Made by a program: the position numbers and the translations under genes. A DNA stretch of 64,000 bases from Liolophura sinensis (Eukaryota; Mollusca; Polyplacophora; Chitonida; Chitonidae): contig NC_088307.1 in the NCBI RefSeq assembly GCF_032854445.1, positions 25,369,953 to 25,433,952 of the forward strand, written 5' to 3'. Each line of letters begins with the position of its first letter. Positions within the stretch are counted from its first letter, which is position 1. This document shows positions 41,741-62,500 of the stretch, piece by piece. The notes beneath the pieces were generated by a model, which saw nothing but the letters and a program-made list of their open reading frames with translations, did no database searches and was not told the DNA's origin.

Positions 41741-42548
41741 TTGAAGAAATGGCAATTTGTTTACCATGTTATGGTAACCGAGGAAATGGACAGTTATCAT
41801 GCACCACTAAAGGGGCCTGTTCCATGGCAAAATACAGCGAAGAGGTACGTCAGCACAGTAAACACGCTAGACCTAGTGCTGTATCCATGTATCCGTCGAA
41901 AATTAAAACTACGCTTGCAAACCAATTATGGGCTGTACAAACGGGACAGAAAAAAATATCCCGATGCCACGATATGATATTCATGTATGTGCACGTATTT
42001 TAAACTTATACGATATCGGTCAGTTTTATAGGCTTAGAAAAACCCCTAAGACTACCAGATTAAAAGTTGATGACAGAGTCACCAAGAACGTCAAAAAAGT
42101 GTCTGCGGCCGTATAGGCCTGTTAATATACATAATACACGGATGTCAATGCAGAGGGCTGTTTCTCAAAGCGGTCATAACGTTACGCCAGACGCAAATGC
42201 CAAGGCGGCATATGCATCGTTGTGTAACGTTACCACCCAGTTGAGGAAACACCTCTCCGGATGCTCTCCCAAGGTCAATCTGAAGTAAGAAAAACTCGTA
42301 AACAATGCTGAATTATGCAACTGCGGGGAAATAAAATTTCGTGAACCAAAGAAACCTGCGGGCACTTGAGCGTAACGATATGAGCAATACTGGCCGCCGT
42401 ATTTCGTCAGCCTGTCGTTTGTGAGGTTACTTACTGCCAGGTAGGCCTACATATAAGCTCGCACACGCTACACGTACGTGTTAAACCAGTCACACAGTGT
42501 TCAGTGTGCAACGCTCTCTTAACGGACGGCGCTAGACAGAAATCGACC

Positions 42549-42674
42549 ATGGCTTCCGATCTGATCAGTTTTAGTAATCCAGTATTCGCCCAGTATGCGT
42601 TTTACTCCGGCGTCGTTTTGTGTAAGACAATGGACATGAGCCTGCTGACAGTGTACTATAGGCTGAAAAACAAG
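42549..42674 (+). CDS. MGST1: MGST1 alternative first coding exon 1a
   Basis: Encodes 42 residues, MASDLISFSNPVFAQYAFYS onward, ending YYRLKNK at a phase-0 donor (AAG followed by GTGAGC). It aligns to the MAPEG N-terminus (luminal end plus first membrane helix) and shares about 25 of 41 residues with exon 1b at 45820-45942. Spliced to exons 49016-49089 and 49844-50087 it would give a 147-residue microsomal glutathione S-transferase 1. The initiator context ACCATGG is strong. No second or third exon lies between 1a and 1b, so it is either an alternative promoter/first exon or the remnant of a partly duplicated gene; the intact frame, start and donor favour use. Confidence 0.75.
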
Positions 42675-42827
42675 GTGAGCCAAAAGTAAGGATATTATGT
42701 TATTACCATGTAGATGGTAAAGCTTTGGTGCTCGGTTAAGCTGATCTCTGAGACGCACGCTTCCTGCTCTGTTAACATACGTATATAGCCTAACAAGTCT
42801 TGGTTCACGTTAACGTGCTAGCGCAGC

Positions 42828-43013
42828 ACAATGACTCAAAGGCTTCTCACCAATGTGGACCTTGTCGGTTCAAGTCCAGCTCATGGTGGCTTCCTTTCCG
42901 GTCAGCAACATGCGTGGCTTGGTCATGGTTTTTCTCCCACCTCAATGCTGGCCGCAGCCGGCGTATAATTGAAATATTCTTGAGCACGACGTAAAACAGT
43001 AATCAAATAAATA
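42828..43013 (+). repeat. SINE family A copy
   Basis: TCAAAGGCTTCTCACCAATG with a B-box-like GGTTCAAGTCCAGCTCATG, a shortened core, then TTGAAATATTCTTGAGCACG and a CAATCAAATAAATAA tail. It lies just downstream of MGST1 exon 1a. Confidence 0.78.
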
Positions 43014-43654
43014 ATTCTAGACATAGCGTGATTGTGTCAGTTGTACAGGAACAAGTACCTCTTTCTGACGAGTTATAGCGGCTACGCGGTATCATTGCAT
43101 TAGTTAGTTCGAAATCGTTAAAACACACAAGATGTGAGTTCGAACCCGGTCTTTAACAGAGGATTTGTACATTCTTCCGCTCTGGATGTTGATAACAATA
43201 AGCGGTCGGCTCCGCTTGTGGGACCCTGTACAGTGTCTGACATGCGACCACTTGTGTTTCAGCAACAGGCCTATACTAGCTATGTTGTGCAAATCTGTTC
43301 ATTGCATGTTGGGAAGTTCATCAGGAACTTGCCAGAGGTCGATTTTGCCTGGGTACTCAAATCTTCTCCACCCACATAAAACTGGTCGTCGTAGTATAAG
43401 TGAAAATTCCGTATGACCTTAATGAAAAATCAAGTATATTATAAACTCGGAGTCCTTTGTGCCTGATTAAATATTAGTGATCCATAATACAAGAGTGTAT
43501 GCTTTTAGAAGTAACCGAAGTAACTTCGACATACAGGACAACAATAGTCACTGCTCAGGTTGCAAGATAATGGAATTTACTGTTCCAGCTGCATTGTAAA
43601 ACATATTGTTCGTTGATTCATTAAGATAAAACTTACCGACCAGGATTATGATTT

Positions 43655-43795
43655 ATTTATTTATTTCATGTATTTGATTGGTGTTTTACGACTTACTCAA
43701 GAATATTTCACTTATACGACGGCGGCCAACATTATGGTGGGGGAAAACGAACAGAGCCCGCGGGAAACCCACGTCCATCCGCAGGTTTCACCGAG
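43655..43795 (-). repeat. SINE family A copy, reverse, 5' truncated
   Basis: Plus strand reads TATTTGATTGGTGTTTTACG, CTCAAGAATATTTCACTTAT, GCCAACATTATGGTGG and CCACGTCCATCCGCAGG, then stops before the tRNA-like head. A preceding ATTTATTTATTT run is its tail. Confidence 0.8.
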
Positions 43796-43964
43796 ATTAT
43801 GCTTAATCATGAAATTCTACTGTTTGTGAATGTATAATGATGAAATTCTCTGTTCGTGTTTACAATTAGATGAAACTGAGAGTGATAAAAAAAAACCTTA
43901 GTGACCAAGATGACTGAACTCCCTGGAACAGTTTGATGTTTTCGATGAAACTCATGCCTTGACC

Positions 43965-44800
43965 AGGATGAATAATGATGCTGATGAATAATGATGACAT
44001 TCACCATGATAGGACCAAGATGTATATTATAATAAAACACAGCATTCATGGATGAATAATGATGCTGACGAATAATGGTGACATTCACCATGATAGGACC
44101 AAGATGTATATTATAATAAAACACAGCATTCATGGATGAATAATGATGCTGACGAATAATGGTGACATTCACCATGATAGGACCAAGATGTATATAATAA
44201 TAAAACACAGCATTCATGGATGAATAATGATGCTGACGAATAATGATGACATTCACCATGATAGGACCAAGATGTATATAATAATAAAACACAGCATTCA
44301 CGGATGAATAATGATGCTGACGAATAATGGTGACATTCACCATGATAGGACCAAGATGTATATTATAATAAAACACAGCATTCATGGATGAATAATGATG
44401 CTGATGAATAATGATGACATTCACCATGATAGGACCTAGATGTATATAATAATAAAACACAGCATTCATGGATGAATAATGATGCTGATGAATAATGATG
44501 ACATTCACCATGATAGGACCAAGATGTATATTATAATAAAACACAGCATTCATGGATGAATAATGATGCTGACGAATAATGGGGACATTCACCATGATAG
44601 GACCTAGATGTATATAATAATAAAACACAGCATTCATGGATGAATAATGATGCTGATGAATAATGATGACATTCACCATGATAGGACCAAGATGTATATT
44701 ATAATAAAACACAGCATTCATGGATGAATAATGATGCTGATGAATAATGATGACATTCACCATGATAGGACCATAATATAATAAAACACAGCATTCATGC
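43965..44800. repeat. 84-bp minisatellite, about 10 copies
   Basis: Units contain GATGAATAATGATGCTGACG, ACATTCACCATGATAGGACC and ACACAGCATTCATG. The 84-bp period and lack of stops in one minus frame produce a 318-codon repetitive frame (28-residue units). No signal, domain or splice context supports translation. It lies between MGST1 exons 1a and 1b. Confidence 0.93.
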
Positions 44801-44854
44801 CGGCTTTCGACATACTCACATTCTCACCCCGCCTCACCCCACGCTTATTCCAAC

Positions 44855-44990
44855 TACCTCCCCCCCCCCCCCACCCCCACCCCCGAGCTCTGCCCGGTTT
44901 CCTCTCACCACAATGTTGGCTGCCGTCGTAGAAGTGAAATATACTTGAGCACGGCGAACACCAATCAAATAAAAAATAAATACCCCAACC
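44855..44990 (+). repeat. C-rich tract plus SINE family A 3' fragment
   Basis: Poly-C with CACCCCCACCCCC (44862-44884) runs into GAGCTCTGCCCGGTTTCCTC, then GTAGAAGTGAAATATACTTG and CAATCAAATAAAAAATAAAT, the 3' end of family A. The minus strand of the C tract is quadruplex-prone. Confidence 0.75.
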
Positions 44991-45819
44991 GCGTCGTGTC
45001 TCGTGTCATCTTACACCGAGATCCCTCGTTAAAAGAATGGGCCATTTGAAACAATTGTGTATTGTGTTAAAACATGGGATGCTAAAATCTGATCGATCCG
45101 CAGACAGAACGACCCATATATAAGAACAGCTTAATTAGCAGCCACTGTCAAAAATTCCTGCGTCCGGATCAACAGTGACATTTAATCTGTTGATCTTCTG
45201 TGCATGGCCAAAACATCTGCAAAATTTGATACAAATCCCTGAATAACTGTTTTATTCTTGAATTTGCTAATTTGTCTGTAAATTTACGAAAAATACGCGG
45301 GTTGGCCTTCGGCTGAAGACCAGGCTGACAGATAGAAAGACAGAAAGACATACAGAGTGAATGACAAATGAAGGCCGACAAGAGTGATGTCACAAACGAT
45401 GGCTAGATAAAATGCCGGAATATTAAATCATAACGAAATCTTTGCTTTTCGGAATTAGACTACTTGTGTATTGAACTGCCATGTTACCGATAGGCCTGTA
45501 TGTAGCGAGTATTGTAGGCCTATACGTAGCGAGTATAACTTGCACGCCGTTATTCATGTAGGCCTACATTCGCTTTGTGTATGAACATTCAACTGCTCCC
45601 CTTCTGTGAAGCTATAAAATACTAAGTGAATGTACTTTGACCCTCTTCGTGTGGCATAGATATGTTAGGTCTCCACCACGCTGCTCTGGGCTAGATCCGG
45701 ATACCTAGGTTCATGGTTGAACTGTGTATGTGAATAGCCGTAGTAGACCTATTGTGTTTGTAAGGCATACCCGGGAGCCGTCAGTCCCGTACATTGGCCT
45801 ATTTACAGCATCCAGCAAC

Positions 45820-48800
45820 ATGACGAGTGATTTCAGCTTTAAGAACCCGGTGTTCGCGCAGTTCGCTTTTTACGCTGGTATCGTGATACTCAAGACTCTG
45901 GCAATGAGTCTGGCTACCGCCTATCACAGGATAACGAAAAAGGTGAGAGAAACCATAAAAATTATAACGCTTGTGTACGCTTGCAAAAGGAAGTGAATGG
46001 TTTGCGAGTGATGCAGGTGGAACGGATCAAGCAAAGGTAGACCTGGGAAGCTTACGAACTAATATATGATGCAAGCTATACAACCAGGTATAATAATTAG
46101 CCTGATGCATCGATCTGGTGATTTGTTTATCTGTGCCTGTCTAAATATGTTTTGCGTCCTTGAAGAGCATTGCACTGCAGCTTATGTCTAAATTAGCGCA
46201 TGACTGCATGTAGATTACAGTCAAGCTACGAGTGTACCCCTTCCCTCTCCCTCCATCGCCTAAAAAGAAAGTAGAGAAAGAAAGAGCGTTAGCTTTAGCT
46301 TGCGAAACCAGCGTGGATCGAAATGGATTTAGCTCTGTTCGCTGACCTATATTTTAACCCAGTGAAAAATGCCCACTCAGAGCATTTACAGTGTGTATAG
46401 GTACTTGTAAGCGTGTGTTAGTCGCGACGATCCAGAGGTGCATGGAAGCCTTGAATTGTCGCTTGGTTATTCTTAGTTATAAGTACCTGTGTCAAGTATA
46501 TCCGTTCTACACAAGACTATCGTCGACCCATGCTATCTGTCTTCCAGCAACCTGCGGGTTATCGTGGGTTTCCGCCGGGCTGGCCACCGTCGTTCAAGTG
46601 AAATATTGTTGAGTACGGCGTAAAACACCAATCAAATAAATAAATGAATAAATCAAGCCATCTTATCCGTCTTTCCGTGTCATAGTGAGTGTCATCAATC
46701 CATGCTGTCCGTGTTTCCGTGCTAAAAAAAGAGTATCGTCAATCAATGCTATCCGTGTTTCCGTGCTAAAAAAAGAGTATCGTCAATCCCTGCTATCCGT
46801 GTTTCCGTGCTAAAAAAAGAGTATCCTCAATCCATGCTATCCGTGTGTCCGTGCTAAAAAAAGAGTATCCTCAATCCATGCTATCCGTGTGTCCGTGCTA
46901 AAAAAAGAGTATCGTCAATCCATGCTATCCGTGTGTCCGTGCTAAAAAAAGAGAATTGTCAATGCATGCTATCCGTATGTACATGCTATACAAGACTATC
47001 ATCAACCCATGCTATCCGTGTTTCCGTGCTATACAAGTATATCTGTATCCATCTCTGTTATCTGCGGGTATCGTCAAGCCCCGTTACATGTGTTACAAGA
47101 GTATCGTCAAGCCCGGTCAACTGTATTACAAGAGTATCCTCAATCTCCGTTACCTGTGTGTGTTGTCAAGCTCCGTTACTTGTGTTACAAGAGTATCGTC
47201 AACCCCGGTACTTTTGTTACAAGAGTATCATCAATCTCTGTTATCTTTGTTACAAGAGTATCGTCAAACCATGTTACCTGTGTTACAAGAGTATCGTCAA
47301 TCCCCGTTACCTATTTTACAAGAGTATTGCCTTTCGTCAGTCCTATATATTTGTAACACAAGAGTGCCCAGAGTTAATACCCGTTACCTGTGGTGCAAGA
47401 GTACCCGGAGTTAATACCCATTACCTGTGGTGCAAGAGTATCCGGAGTTAATACCCATTATCTGTGGTATAACAGTGCCCGGAGTTAATCATCATTATCT
47501 AGGGTGCAAAATAACCGGAGTTAATACCCATTACCTGTGGTGCAAGAGTACACGGTGTTAATACCCATTATCTGTGGTGTAACAGTGCCCGGAGTTAATC
47601 CTCATTGTCTAGGGTGCAAGAGTGCCCGGAGTTAATCCCCATTATCTGGGTAGCAAGAGTGCCCGGAGTTAATCCTCATTATCTGTGGTGCAAGAGTCCA
47701 CGGAGTTAATCCCCATTATCTGGGTAGCAAGAGTGCCCGGAGTTAATCCTCATTATCTCTGGTGCAAGAGTCCACGGAGTTAATCCTCATTATCTGGGTA
47801 GCAAGAGTGCCCGGAGGTAATCTCCGTTATCTGGGTAGCAAGAGTGCCCGGAGGTAATCTCCGTTATCTGTGGTGCAAGAGTGCCCGGAGTTAATCTCCA
47901 TTCTCTGTGGTGCAAGAGGGTCTGTATCTCCGTTGTGTAACACCCTTTTGTCGAACTCCTTTTTCTGTTTGTCAGTTTTAAGAAAACTTATCTGTGTAAC
48001 AGGGTTTGATGAGGCCCTCTTACCTGAGATACACTGACGTCGCTAGTCACGTTTATGAGCGGAGGCATTGGTGGACGAGGTGGTTAGCACACCAGCGCTG
48101 CGCAATGATACAAGAGCCTCTCACCAATGCAGTCACCGAGAGTTCAAGCCCAGCTCAAGATGGCTTCCTCTCCAATCTTACGTGGGATGGCCTGTCAGCA
48201 GCCTGCGGATGATCGTGGGTTTCCCCCGGTTTTCTCCCACCATAACCCAGGTCACCGTCGTATAAGTGAAATATTATTGAGTACGGCGTAAAACGAATTA
48301 AATACATAAATAAATAAATTTATGAACGTTACGTGTTCTTATCAATGGCCTTGGTCTCATTTCCTTTTGTCACCACTCCCTTTTTGTTTATGCTCAGTAT
48401 TGTCCGTATTCCTGTGCATCTCTGTTACAGGTTGTTCTGATTCCTAGTTATCTCTGTTACACCTTGCCTTTACTCACATTCATCTCTGATGCAATGGATT
48501 CATCCATGCCCTTCAGTTTTATTATTTTTTTATTCACTTAAAACATTGGTGTTTTACGCGGTGCTCTAGAATATTTCACTTATACGACGGCGGACAGCAT
48601 TATAGTGGGAGGAAACCGGGCAAAGCACGGGGGATCCACGACCATCCACAAGTTGCTGGTAGACCTTCCCACTTACAGCCGGAGATTAAGCCAGCATGAG
48701 CTGGGCTTGAACTCACAGCGACTACATTGGTGAGAGGCTATGGGTTATTATGCCGTGTTGGCGCACTACCCCCCACGGCGCTCCCCCAAACCTCCTTCCC

Positions 48801-50087
48801 CTTCATAGAATACCACCTTTCCTTTTTATTCTGAAGAGTTGAAGATTTCCATCGGCCAAAGACCATTAGTTTTCGCTACCGATTTCAACGCATGAGCCCT
48901 TTTTATCTTTGTCAAAGATTTCAATAGATCCCGTTTACCTTTGTTTCAGGTATAGATTAATACCGCCTTTCTTCGATTTACAGATTTTGATCAGTCCCGT
49001 TCTTCTTCTTTACAGGTTTTCATCAATCCCGAGGATAACCCTGGTGGAAAGGTTACCCCTAATGACCCAGACGTTGAGAGGATCAGACGGTAAAGACGTC
49101 TGTTTTGACAGCGTACAGAATAGAATAACGGAATATTCTTACTCATTTGTTATAGTCAGTGTCCTTAAAATAAAATCAGACAGTTGGGGTTAGAATAGTG
49201 TGATATAGATATGTAAGACTGCCGTGAAGTTAGAGATCACGTGATCACCCTAGCATGGCAAAAACAAAATGACCGCCCCATGTTGAAGCATACGGAAGGA
49301 TGCCAATCTTTTCCACTCTGTCAGCCACCTGGTTGTACGAAAAAAACAAACAAAAAACATCCCGCAAGCTCTACAGAAATACTCAGACTAACTGGAAAAC
49401 TGAATATTATACAAATCGAACGAATAAACTACCACTAATATTGGTTCAAAAATAGGCATTTTCCTATGCTATAATGTCGGGAGGACAGTTGACTTCACTC
49501 ACGTCGTCTGTCACTCAGGAGATCACGTAGTCTATCTTCCGGGCCGTCTTACAGAATTCCTGAGTACGGAGTAAAACACCAACCAAATAAATAAATATGG
49601 AACTAAATTATGTGGAGAATACATTAGTATACCGATCTTATCTGGTAACTTTTGTACAGGGTTACATTATTTTTTTTATCCCATTTTGTGTAGGCCTATG
49701 CGGTAGGCCTACACAGACATTACCAATAGGAAATCCTTGTCCAGTCCGATTCGGGATAATTTCTCCTTCACCACCATTTCTTAGAATTTGTTCGTTTAAT
49801 GTGTTGTATTTAATGTGTTGTACTTGACCTTGACTCTCCACAGGTGTCATCTAAATGACCTTGAGAACGTTGTGCCTTTTGTGCTGATTGGCGGATTGTA
49901 CGTCCTGACAGGACCTAGTGCGCATGCCGCTGCTCTACACTTCCGCATTTTCGCCGCCGCCCGGATATTCCACACGATATCCTATCTCTTCGCTCTGCCT
50001 CAGCCGTGCCGAGCTTTGTCGTTTGTTGTGGGATATATGGCTACAGCCTCCATGGCTGTAAACGTCATAAGATCAGGCGTGATGTAA
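45820..50087 (+). CDS. MGST1: Microsomal glutathione S-transferase 1 (MAPEG family)
   Basis: Integral ER/outer-mitochondrial-membrane enzyme, a trimer in the family, that conjugates glutathione to lipophilic electrophiles and reduces lipid hydroperoxides. Exons: 45820-45942 (1b), 49016-49089, 49844-50087; phases 0 and 2 join to 146 residues (human 155). Exon 1b starts MTSDFSFKNPVFAQFAFYAG, the first membrane helix. Exon 2 gives VFINPEDN ... DVERIRR with a loop several residues shorter than in mammals. Exon 3 gives CHLNDLENVVPFVLIGGLYV, HFRIFAAARIFHTISY and LPQPCRALSFVVGY, the MAPEG signature with its conserved arginines and three further hydrophobic helices, ending GVM and a TAA stop. The mammalian ARIYH tyrosine is Phe here. 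The 3-kb intron contains three minisatellites and SINE copies. Exons 2 and 3 can also join exon 1a (42549). Confidence 0.92.
46540..46655 (+). repeat. SINE family A, 3' fragment
   Basis: CAGCAACCTGCGGGTTATCG, GGCTGGCCACCGTCG, TGAAATATTGTTGAGTACGG and CAATCAAATAAATAAATGAA. It abuts the start of the 44-bp minisatellite. Confidence 0.78.
46675..46985. repeat. 44-bp minisatellite, about 6-7 copies
   Basis: Units contain CATGCTATCCGTGTGTCCGT, GCTAAAAAAAGAGTATC and GTCAATC; the period from 46721 to 46765 is 44 bp. It is the first of three adjoining arrays in the MGST1 intron. Confidence 0.9.
47080..47345. repeat. About 31-bp minisatellite, about 8 copies
   Basis: Units contain CGTTACCTGTGTTACAAGAG and TATCGTCAATCC. 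It shares the AAGAGTATCGTCAATC core with the 44-bp array immediately upstream and TACCTGTG..CAAGAGT with the array downstream. Confidence 0.88.
47370..47925. repeat. About 38-bp minisatellite, about 14 copies
   Basis: Units contain GGAGTTAATCCCCATTATCT and GTGGTGCAAGAGTGCCC. Sub-variants with GGGTAGCAAGAGT alternate with GTGGTGCAAGAGT. It lies in the MGST1 intron before exon 2. Confidence 0.9.
48065..48322 (+). repeat. SINE family A, near full-length copy
   Basis: Head ACGAGGTGGTTAGCACACCA and B-box-like GAGAGTTCAAGCCCAGCTC, core GATGGCTTCCTCTCCAATC and CAGCAGCCTGCGGATGATCG, then GTATAAGTGAAATATTATTG and an AATTAAATACATAAATAAA tail. Confidence 0.82.
48525..48790 (-). repeat. SINE family A, near full-length copy, reverse
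   Basis: Plus strand: TTGGTGTTTTACGCGGTGCT, AATATTTCACTTATACGACG, CAGCATTATAGTGGGAGG, CCAGCATGAGCTGGGCTTGA, CTCACAGCGACTACATTGG and a tRNA-head remnant (GTTGGCGCACTACC). It faces the copy 200 bp upstream, so the two could pair in a transcript. Confidence 0.82.
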
Positions 50088-59574: not shown

Positions 59575-62500
59575 TCAGCAGACGGGGACTTTAATTTGGC
59601 TCAGTTTCTCGTCCTTTGGGTTATAGCCCATGTTTTTCCGCTGGAGGAACATGTGGATTTCTCGGAAGCTGGGCCTTTCCAACTCTTGCCTGTTCCAGCA
59701 TTCTCGCATCAGGTCGTAGATCTCCCGCGGGCAGTTCGGCGGCTGGGGTAGGTAGAGTTGCTGATTGTCGTTGCGGTAGTAGTGACCGGCGTTTTCGATC
59801 ACCTGTTCGTCGGTGAGCGAATCATACGGCTGCTCCTTGGCAAAGGTCAGCACCTCCCAGAGGGTCACCGCAAATGACCACACATCACTTTTCGTTGTGA
59901 ATTTACCCTAAGACAACAACAAAGACAAGAATATAAACTTATTTAGTTAATTATTACTGTTTGATTTGATGAATATACTCAAAAATATTTCACTAATACG
60001 ATCGCACGATGGAGCCCAGAAAGTCTCCAACTCCTTTTCTTACACTGGCCTGACGTCGTTTGAGTCTTGACGCTTACAATGTTAATTTCCTACTCAACGA
60101 AGGTATAGGCCGATTCTCTTTGTCACTGAACAAGTCTCGCATAAATAAAAGATACCAAACTGAAGACCTGCTTTCTGCACCCACAGCCCTGCCACCATAT
60201 GTTCCTACTCGATTTAGAGTAGATTTATTATAGCCACGAAGGCTTCCATGGTATTCTCTCCTCAGCAAATGCAGCCATCTTCCCACTGTTCCACTATGAA
60301 GCAGGACAAGCGCGCAGCTGCTCAACATTCGGCAGTTGCCGAGGAGCATGTAACGTGGAAGCCTTCATGGCTATAATAAGTCTATTCTAAATTGAGTAGG
60401 GACACATGGTCTACACTCCAACGACACTAGGCCAGTATAAGAAAAGGACTTTCAGGGCTAGATGGTAGTCATTTCTACGGGTGGAGGAAACTGGAGTGCA
60501 AAGTGTAAACCACTGAGCTTTGGCAAGTTAATGACAAGCTTTCAAAATGTGACTTACAGATATACACACCATACTGGTGAAAGATAAGTACTCGTCAGGG
60601 ACCACAAGTCTGCACAAATGGTTAAATGAGCGCCAGTGATCGCATATCATCAAGGCGCCACACAGAGAGAATCTACCAATTGCTTGTCCAACACTGGGTT
60701 TGAAATGGTACCTTGTGCATCCTGGCGACTGACAGGCAAGTCTACAGCATGGCCTGTTACATGTAGCTAACCTGACAAACAATCCTATTTGTTGCGATTG
60801 AAAGCCATGGCCAAATCGGCAAAACCTAACCAGTAGTCTGCAGCCTCACTGGTCAGAGGCAAATCAGCTTAAGCCAATATGCCAGCGTCCGTCACTATTC
60901 ACAAACGATTGACGTCTTGGGGAATGTTTTTTCTGAAAAGGTTCTAGGGAGAAGGAAGTATAAACTGCATGGGCCATTATCAACATAAAGCCGTAAACAA
61001 GTTCAAACAAGGGATCTCAGTTGCCAAGGGCTATCTGTCTGCCAAACAAGTAAACATTAGGTCTTTTGATTTATTTATGTGATCTGAAGTGTTTTTGCCG
61101 TATCGGCACTCAGATATTTCACTTATATGACAGCAACCAACATTATGGTGGGAGTAAACCCACAACAAACATTATGGTGGGAGCTAACCCAAAACCAACA
61201 TTATGGTGGGAGGAAACCCAAAACCAACATTATGGTGGGAGGAAACCCACAACAAACATTATGGTGGGAGGAAACCCACAACCAACATTATGGTGGGAGG
61301 AAACCCAAAACCAACATTATGGTGGGAGGAAATCCACAACCATGTGCTGGCTGATGACAGATCTTCCCACATATGACCGGAGAGGAAGCCAGCACGAGCA
61401 GGACATAAACTCACAATGATCACATAGATGAAACGCCCCTGGACGTCACTGTGCTGCACTAGCCTGCTAATCACAAGGCCACCCAAGGCCTTGGGTTTTT
61501 TTAGGACAATCTGATAAAATGCTGCTTTTGTTCCCTGATGATACTCACCAGTAGTATACTCTCCCAGGCCATCCAGCGGATAGGTAACACGGCCTTTCCT
61601 TCTATCCTGTAATAGTCAGCACTGTACAAGCTACGGCTCATCCCAAAATCGGAAATCTTAATGCAGAAGTGATGACCGACAAGACAGTTCCTGGTGGCCA
61701 GGTCGCGGTGGACCATGTTCAGGGATTCTAGGAACTTCATTCCGGAGGCGATCTGAGACGAGATGAAGATGAGGCAGCCATAACTGAAACAAAGAGAGGA
61801 AACACTTTGGTTACAATTTGTTGCTGGGTGAGGTGGGTGTGGATAAGGGGGTTTGTGGTGGTGGCGTGGAAGAGCTGAATAAAGTAAGTGGAAGAACAAT
61901 ATGTTGGTGGTTGTAGTGGGAGTGGGTGTGGGAGGTTGGCAGGGTCGGGGAGTGGGGCGTTGGAGTGGGGAATGAAATAATAATCATGAAATAATAATCC
62001 TAAAACAATCAAGCTCTATTTCAAGAGAGCAAACTATGTTAAAATGGACAAACTGCCAGTGTGAGAAGAAAATCCTGAGTATGGCATTCACTAAAAACAA
62101 ACAGACTAGTAGTCTAACAAGCCCACCAAAAAGATCAGTAAATATCACACACCTTAAATATTTCGCATTAGTTGCTATAGCAACAGGGCTTTCCGGAACA
62201 TGGTCTTGAAGGAATTGATGGAGGTCTCCATATTTCATATACTCGACAATCATGCACAAGGGTTCCTCCGTGGTGCACACGCCCATCACCCGCACGATGT
62301 TAGGGTCCTTCAACTGGGACATTATCTTTATCTCTTTATGAAAATCGGCTCTGAAATACAAAATTGAGGTGCAGATTGTGAAATATACAAAGTGCTAAGC
62401 AAGAGAAAAACGTTTAACAACAGAGCTTATACTGTTTTTTTTTTTTATATAATTTACTATATCCAACTACATTCCCATAAATATTCTACTCAGCTGATGG

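Follow-up and report, generated by a model that had tools for sequence, protein, structure and literature searches.

A chiton MGST1 gene with two homologous N-terminal coding exons, probably used as alternatives

The window analyzed in this study is the 64,000-nt stretch at C13:25369953-25433952 of the Liolophura sinensis genome. The window is N-free and has no assembly gap. It contains an MGST1 gene on the forward strand, in which two N-terminal coding exons precede one exon 2 and one exon 3. Exon 1a (42549-42674) has 42 codons from its ATG to a phase-0 donor and is translated as MASDLISFSNPVFAQYAFYSGVVLCKTMDMSLLTVYYRLKNK, and exon 1b (45820-45942) has 41 codons, also from an ATG to a phase-0 donor, and is translated as MTSDFSFKNPVFAQFAFYAGIVILKTLAMSLATAYHRITKK. 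Each of them encodes the MGST1 N-terminus and the first membrane helix (TM1), as indicated by the translations and by homology to rat MGST1 and, for 1a, to 1b and a paralogue described below. The donors are AAG/GTGAGC for 1a and AAG/GTGAGA for 1b, where the slash marks the exon boundary, and are identical through GTGAG.

Exon 2 (49016-49089) encodes the TM1-TM2 loop (VFINPED...VERIRR) and was delimited by the splice signals CTTTACAG/GTTTTC and CG/GTAAAG and by a frame test. Exon 3 (49844-50087), preceded by the acceptor CTCCACAG, encodes TM2-TM4, that is, the catalytic part, and the stop codon; it was identified by a match to Pfam MAPEG (PF01124) and by the frame test. The codon split at the exon 2/3 junction (AGA CG/G TGT) is completed by exon 3 to give ...VERIRRCHLNDLE, and the rat counterpart is VERVRRAHLNDLE. 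When joined to exons 2 and 3, exon 1a gives an open MGST1 frame of 147 aa with a terminal stop, and exon 1b gives one of 146 aa. The positions and frames that an earlier sequence-only reading had assigned to exons 1a and 1b, with phase-0 donors fitting 49016-49089 and 49844-50087, were thus obtained again. In vertebrate MGST1, the exon boundary before VFANPED is the same as that in the chiton gene.

The values for the Pfam MAPEG matches were E 7.7e-29 for the 1b isoform and 9.8e-28 for the 1a isoform, and the scores of the two isoforms were 100.9 and 97.3 bits against a gathering cut-off of 23.4. The best PDB match of both isoforms was rat MGST1 (E 1.5e-40 and 2.3e-39). Compared with the other MAPEG structures, the protein is nearer to MGST1, with 141.6 bits for rat MGST1 vs 94.6 bits for mPGES-1, and chains of LTC4S alone or of MGST2 alone were absent from the PDB matches at E <= 0.001. 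All of the rat residues K26, R38, K42, R73, R74, H76, N78, E81, and R130, whose catalytic or glutathione (GSH)-contact roles are described for rat MGST1 (PMC5554250), are present in the chiton alignments. The chiton protein thus belongs to the same family as vertebrate MGST1 and conserves K26, R38, K42, and R130. Judging from the conservation of K26, R38, and K42, both isoforms should bind GSH.

Exons 1a and 1b were then compared with each other. In an ungapped core, 22 of 36 residues are identical, and the runner-up to the 1b core among 127,780 six-frame window positions reached 9 of 36. The tblastn match of 1a with 1b had an E value of 2.5e-13. The whole genome, when searched with only the exon 1b sequence, returned 1b (E 2e-20), 1a (E 2e-9), and exon 1 of the paralogue (E 0.08) and nothing more; that is, no additional copy of exon 1 was found. 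A chance likeness of 1a and 1b is excluded. Re-alignment with one codon indel gave 25 of 41 common residues, the same count as that reported in the sequence-only reading. At the DNA level the two exons are 63% identical; in the comparison that included the flanking DNA, the match over the exons was 66% and ended near the donor.

The downstream exons occur once. The genome search, in which only the best candidates receive a score, gave a single occurrence each of this gene's exon 2 and exon 3. Neither a sensitive tblastn search of the window nor the genome search gave a second exon 2 or 3 save those belonging to the paralogue, and the window search found no relics of exon 2 or 3 between 1a and 1b. 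The proposal that 1a and 1b share a single set of exons 2 and 3, with no separate set for 1a, is therefore borne out by both searches.

The MGST1 paralogue lies at C13:17700800-17705081, on the contig of the present gene and at a distance of 7.7 Mb, and has its own exons 1, 2, and 3. Its exon 1 is MAVASDLFNDKLFRQ..., its exon 3 is 53% identical to that of the present gene, and its exon 2 is seven codons longer, like that of rat MGST1. The examined region extends 5.3 kb beyond its exon 1 in the upstream direction and holds no second copy of that exon. Two further MAPEG matches are located on the C4 contig.

From the genomic arrangement, we think it quite probable that this is one MGST1 gene with a tandemly duplicated TM1 exon, in which either 1a or 1b is combined with exons 2 and 3 to give two predicted enzymes. 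That is, the N-terminal coding exon of a single gene would have been duplicated in tandem, and each transcript would take 1a or 1b, never both, and join it to the sole exon 2 and exon 3. The products would be a pair of microsomal glutathione transferases with differences confined to residues 1-42. We infer that both 1a and 1b are transcribed.

The choice between the two exons could lie with separate promoters, an option that seems more likely at 1a, or with mutually exclusive splicing of a non-coding leader to one exon or the other, which is possible for 1b. Promoter choice was the mechanism named in the sequence-only reading, and the motifs seen here would fit it better at 1a than at 1b. A pattern scan found a possible promoter element, TATAAG (42452-42457, forward strand), 97 nt before the ATG of 1a. 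It is suggestive only, as is the TATAAG found 99 nt upstream of the paralogue's own ATG. The possible element of 1b, TATAAA (45613-45618, forward strand), stands 207 nt before the ATG and is weak, being a common motif. No antioxidant-response element (RTGAYNNNGC) occurs in the 1 kb upstream of 1a or of 1b; two occur at the paralogue and were not judged significant.

Before 1b, on the other hand, there is a possible 3' splice site, TTTACAG (45802-45808, forward strand), which ends 11 nt before the ATG. Given this suggestive site, 1b may be internal, preceded by a non-coding leader exon, and be chosen by mutually exclusive splicing. In the full form of this alternative, there are no separate promoters, and a shared non-coding leader, located before the 42.5-kb point, is spliced to 1a in some transcripts and to 1b in others. 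TTTACAG is likewise found shortly before the exon-1 ATG of the paralogue, and the 64-kb window has only 11 copies of it on the forward strand. Non-coding leader exons are also known in vertebrate MGST1. Against such splicing stand the TATAAG upstream of 1a and the poor pyrimidine tract at the AG before 1a, where 6 of 16 positions are pyrimidines, compared with 10 at 1b and 15 at exon 2. All of these promoter and leader signals are short, weak motifs that were recognized post hoc. Taken together, separate promoters have in our judgment slightly better than an even chance, and mutually exclusive splicing is a tenable but less probable mechanism; the small remainder belongs to some other arrangement or to no use. 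A transcript containing both exons would give no enzyme. When 1a was joined to the one acceptor-like site of good quality upstream of 1b, on which this test was made, the frame read ...LKNKHPAT* with the stop five codons on, so any functional mRNA must contain just one of the two exons.

A different explanation is that 1a is a relic: a tandem MGST1 copy would have lost its exons 2 and 3, and its first exon would have stayed behind without further use. The lack of any exon 2 or 3 between 1a and 1b agrees with this explanation, and the evidence for the use of 1a is genomic. However, the frame of 1a is open and its donor is intact, and the substitutions point in the other direction. The identities of 1a and 1b at codon positions 1, 2, and 3 are 73, 80, and 34%. 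By the method of Nei and Gojobori, pS was 0.90, which is saturated and beyond correction, and pN was 0.23, far under the neutral expectation; the bootstrap range of pN/pS was 0.15-0.38. When 1a was simulated as neutral through one fourth of a divergence with a total dS of 1.5, a pN as low as the observed value appeared in 0.25% of runs, and in simulations with 1a drifting freely for at least a quarter of the divergence, pN was too high when the total dS was at least 1.5. The contrast between pS and pN indicates that both exons have been kept as protein-coding sequence by selection since an old duplication. The old duplication with two intact frames that the sequence-only reading had described thus agrees with protein-level constraint on both. 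The constraint on 1a may have been lost only lately, over roughly 10% of the divergence or less.

The distances to other MGST1 sequences also bear on the relic explanation. Exons 1a and 1b are equally distant from the paralogue (12 of 32 residues identical for each), which argues against a decaying 1a, and they match rat MGST1 at 11 and 13 of 32 residues, respectively. We therefore regard the relic explanation as unlikely. The identity of 1a with 1b (19 of 32) is above that of either exon to the paralogue, and thus the duplication probably occurred later than the split from the paralogue.

It is much less probable still that 1a is part of another MGST1 gene, with exons 2 and 3 of its own at some other place or absent from the assembly. 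Assemblies can miss sequence, and the genome search scores best candidates only, but the window is free of N, and apart from those of the present gene, exons 2 and 3 were found just in the paralogue, where an exon 1 accompanies them. An assembly artefact in which two haplotypes were placed end to end might be thought of because the genome is heterozygous (about 1.2%; PMC11068029), but it is ruled out by the divergence of 1a from 1b, which is far past that of alleles, and by the flanking DNA of the two exons, which has no common sequence beyond SINE-like and 84-bp tandem repeats.

Returning to one gene with alternative TM1 exons, we considered how the two helices would differ in function. In rat MGST1, GSH lies near the TM1 residues A35, R38, L39, and K42; K26 forms an ion pair between TM1 and TM2 with D79; F36 closes the lipid-side entrance; and T40 is near a bound lipid (PMC5554250). 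In the alignment to rat MGST1, the two chiton isoforms agree in K26, R38, and K42 and also in having Tyr at position 36, while D79 and the catalytic R130 are encoded by the shared exon 3. At the differing positions, 1b has L25, A29, A35, I39, and T40, and 1a has C25, D29, V35, L39, and K40. The isoform with 1b looks more canonical, since A35 and T40 are as in rat, and that with 1a looks more derived. The maximum 19-residue Kyte-Doolittle mean was 1.2 for 1a, 1.72 for 1b, and 1.78 for rat.

We speculate that D29 of 1a, an Asp within the membrane helix one turn from K26, could disturb the K26-D79 ion pair, and that 1a with its less hydrophobic helix could be the poorer enzyme. More generally, the choice of exon would plausibly alter the pocket for GSH or for the second substrate, the lipid contacts, or the stability. 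An effect on membrane targeting, which had been suggested from the sequence-only reading, appears less likely, because the differing positions include some whose rat equivalents are close to GSH or the bound lipid, or are separated by one helical turn from the ion pair linking TM1 and TM2. The two helices would rather tune the site for glutathione and the lipophilic substrate, or the lipid contacts.

To our knowledge, the alternative first exons of mammalian MGST1 are non-coding, and Drosophila Mgstl may have isoforms with differing N-termini. Among the open-access papers searched, none was found that describes MGST1 with coding alternative first exons or MGST isoforms in molluscs or insects. 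Provisionally, coding alternative first exons would be new for MGST1.

Similar arrangements are known in other genes. The vertebrate UGT1A (UGT1) cluster also encodes detoxification enzymes by tandem homologous variable first coding exons and a common downstream set, so that the N-terminal part varies and the remainder is shared (PMC3325998). In the chiton gene, too, homologous N-terminal exons each join one shared downstream set in frame. In UGT1A, however, there are many first exons, each with its own promoter and each encoding a large domain (PMC3325998), whereas the chiton gene, of an unrelated family and known here only at the genomic level, has two exons that encode one membrane helix. 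Oyster AOX is a stress-related membrane enzyme of a mollusc in which exon 10 is duplicated in tandem and used alternatively, and, as in chiton MGST1, one copy is canonical and the other is derived near key functional sites (PMC5589949). The AOX exon is the last one, in contrast to the N-terminal exon of the chiton gene, and its expression was shown under air exposure (PMC5589949).

It is possible, at somewhat less than even probability, that this UGT1A-style exon choice is shared by many chitons or molluscs and provides MGST1 trimers with two types of TM1 and differing substrate or lipid preference or stress response. Mixed trimers would also be possible because glutathione sits between subunits. 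MGST1 protects membranes from lipid peroxidation. If the proposal is true, an isoform pair differing only in TM1 would be a natural experiment on this helix, which borders both the glutathione site and the substrate entrance on the lipid side, and it would represent a one-gene path to enzyme diversity in an intertidal mollusc under strong oxidative stress.

The introns of the gene contain several kinds of repeats. Between 1a and 1b there is a ten-copy tandem array of an 84-bp unit with 95% matches (43966-44799). On the reverse strand it contains a 338-aa open frame of 28-aa repeats, which is most likely fortuitous: 84 is a multiple of 3, and therefore the frame stays open through the array. 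SINE-like elements (CGTATAAGTGAAATATT..TTGAGTACGGCGTAAAAC...), which we take to be of a type present in other mollusc genomes, lie in and between the introns at 42930-43015, 44898-44977, and 48540-48780. The intron before exon 2 carries long minisatellites with 44-, 33-, and 37-bp units (46687-49034), and a two-copy 32-bp repeat (48969-49031) spans the exon 2 acceptor itself. The 33-bp unit resembles this acceptor and the first bases of the exon (TTACAG...TCATCAATCCC), with a score reached by 0.15% of shuffles and 0.13% of background tiles, which is suggestive. A derivation of the 44- and 37-bp units from the acceptor was unsupported in the same test, and the likeness of acceptor and minisatellite was weak in a single-probe scan. 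Expansion from the splice site, with acceptor-like copies left behind, is a possible origin of the array.

Two other features of the window lie on the reverse strand. Exons of a tyrosine kinase domain are found downstream of MGST1 (59575-62394), and an open frame at 484-852 has a partial, sub-threshold match to the von Willebrand A domain.
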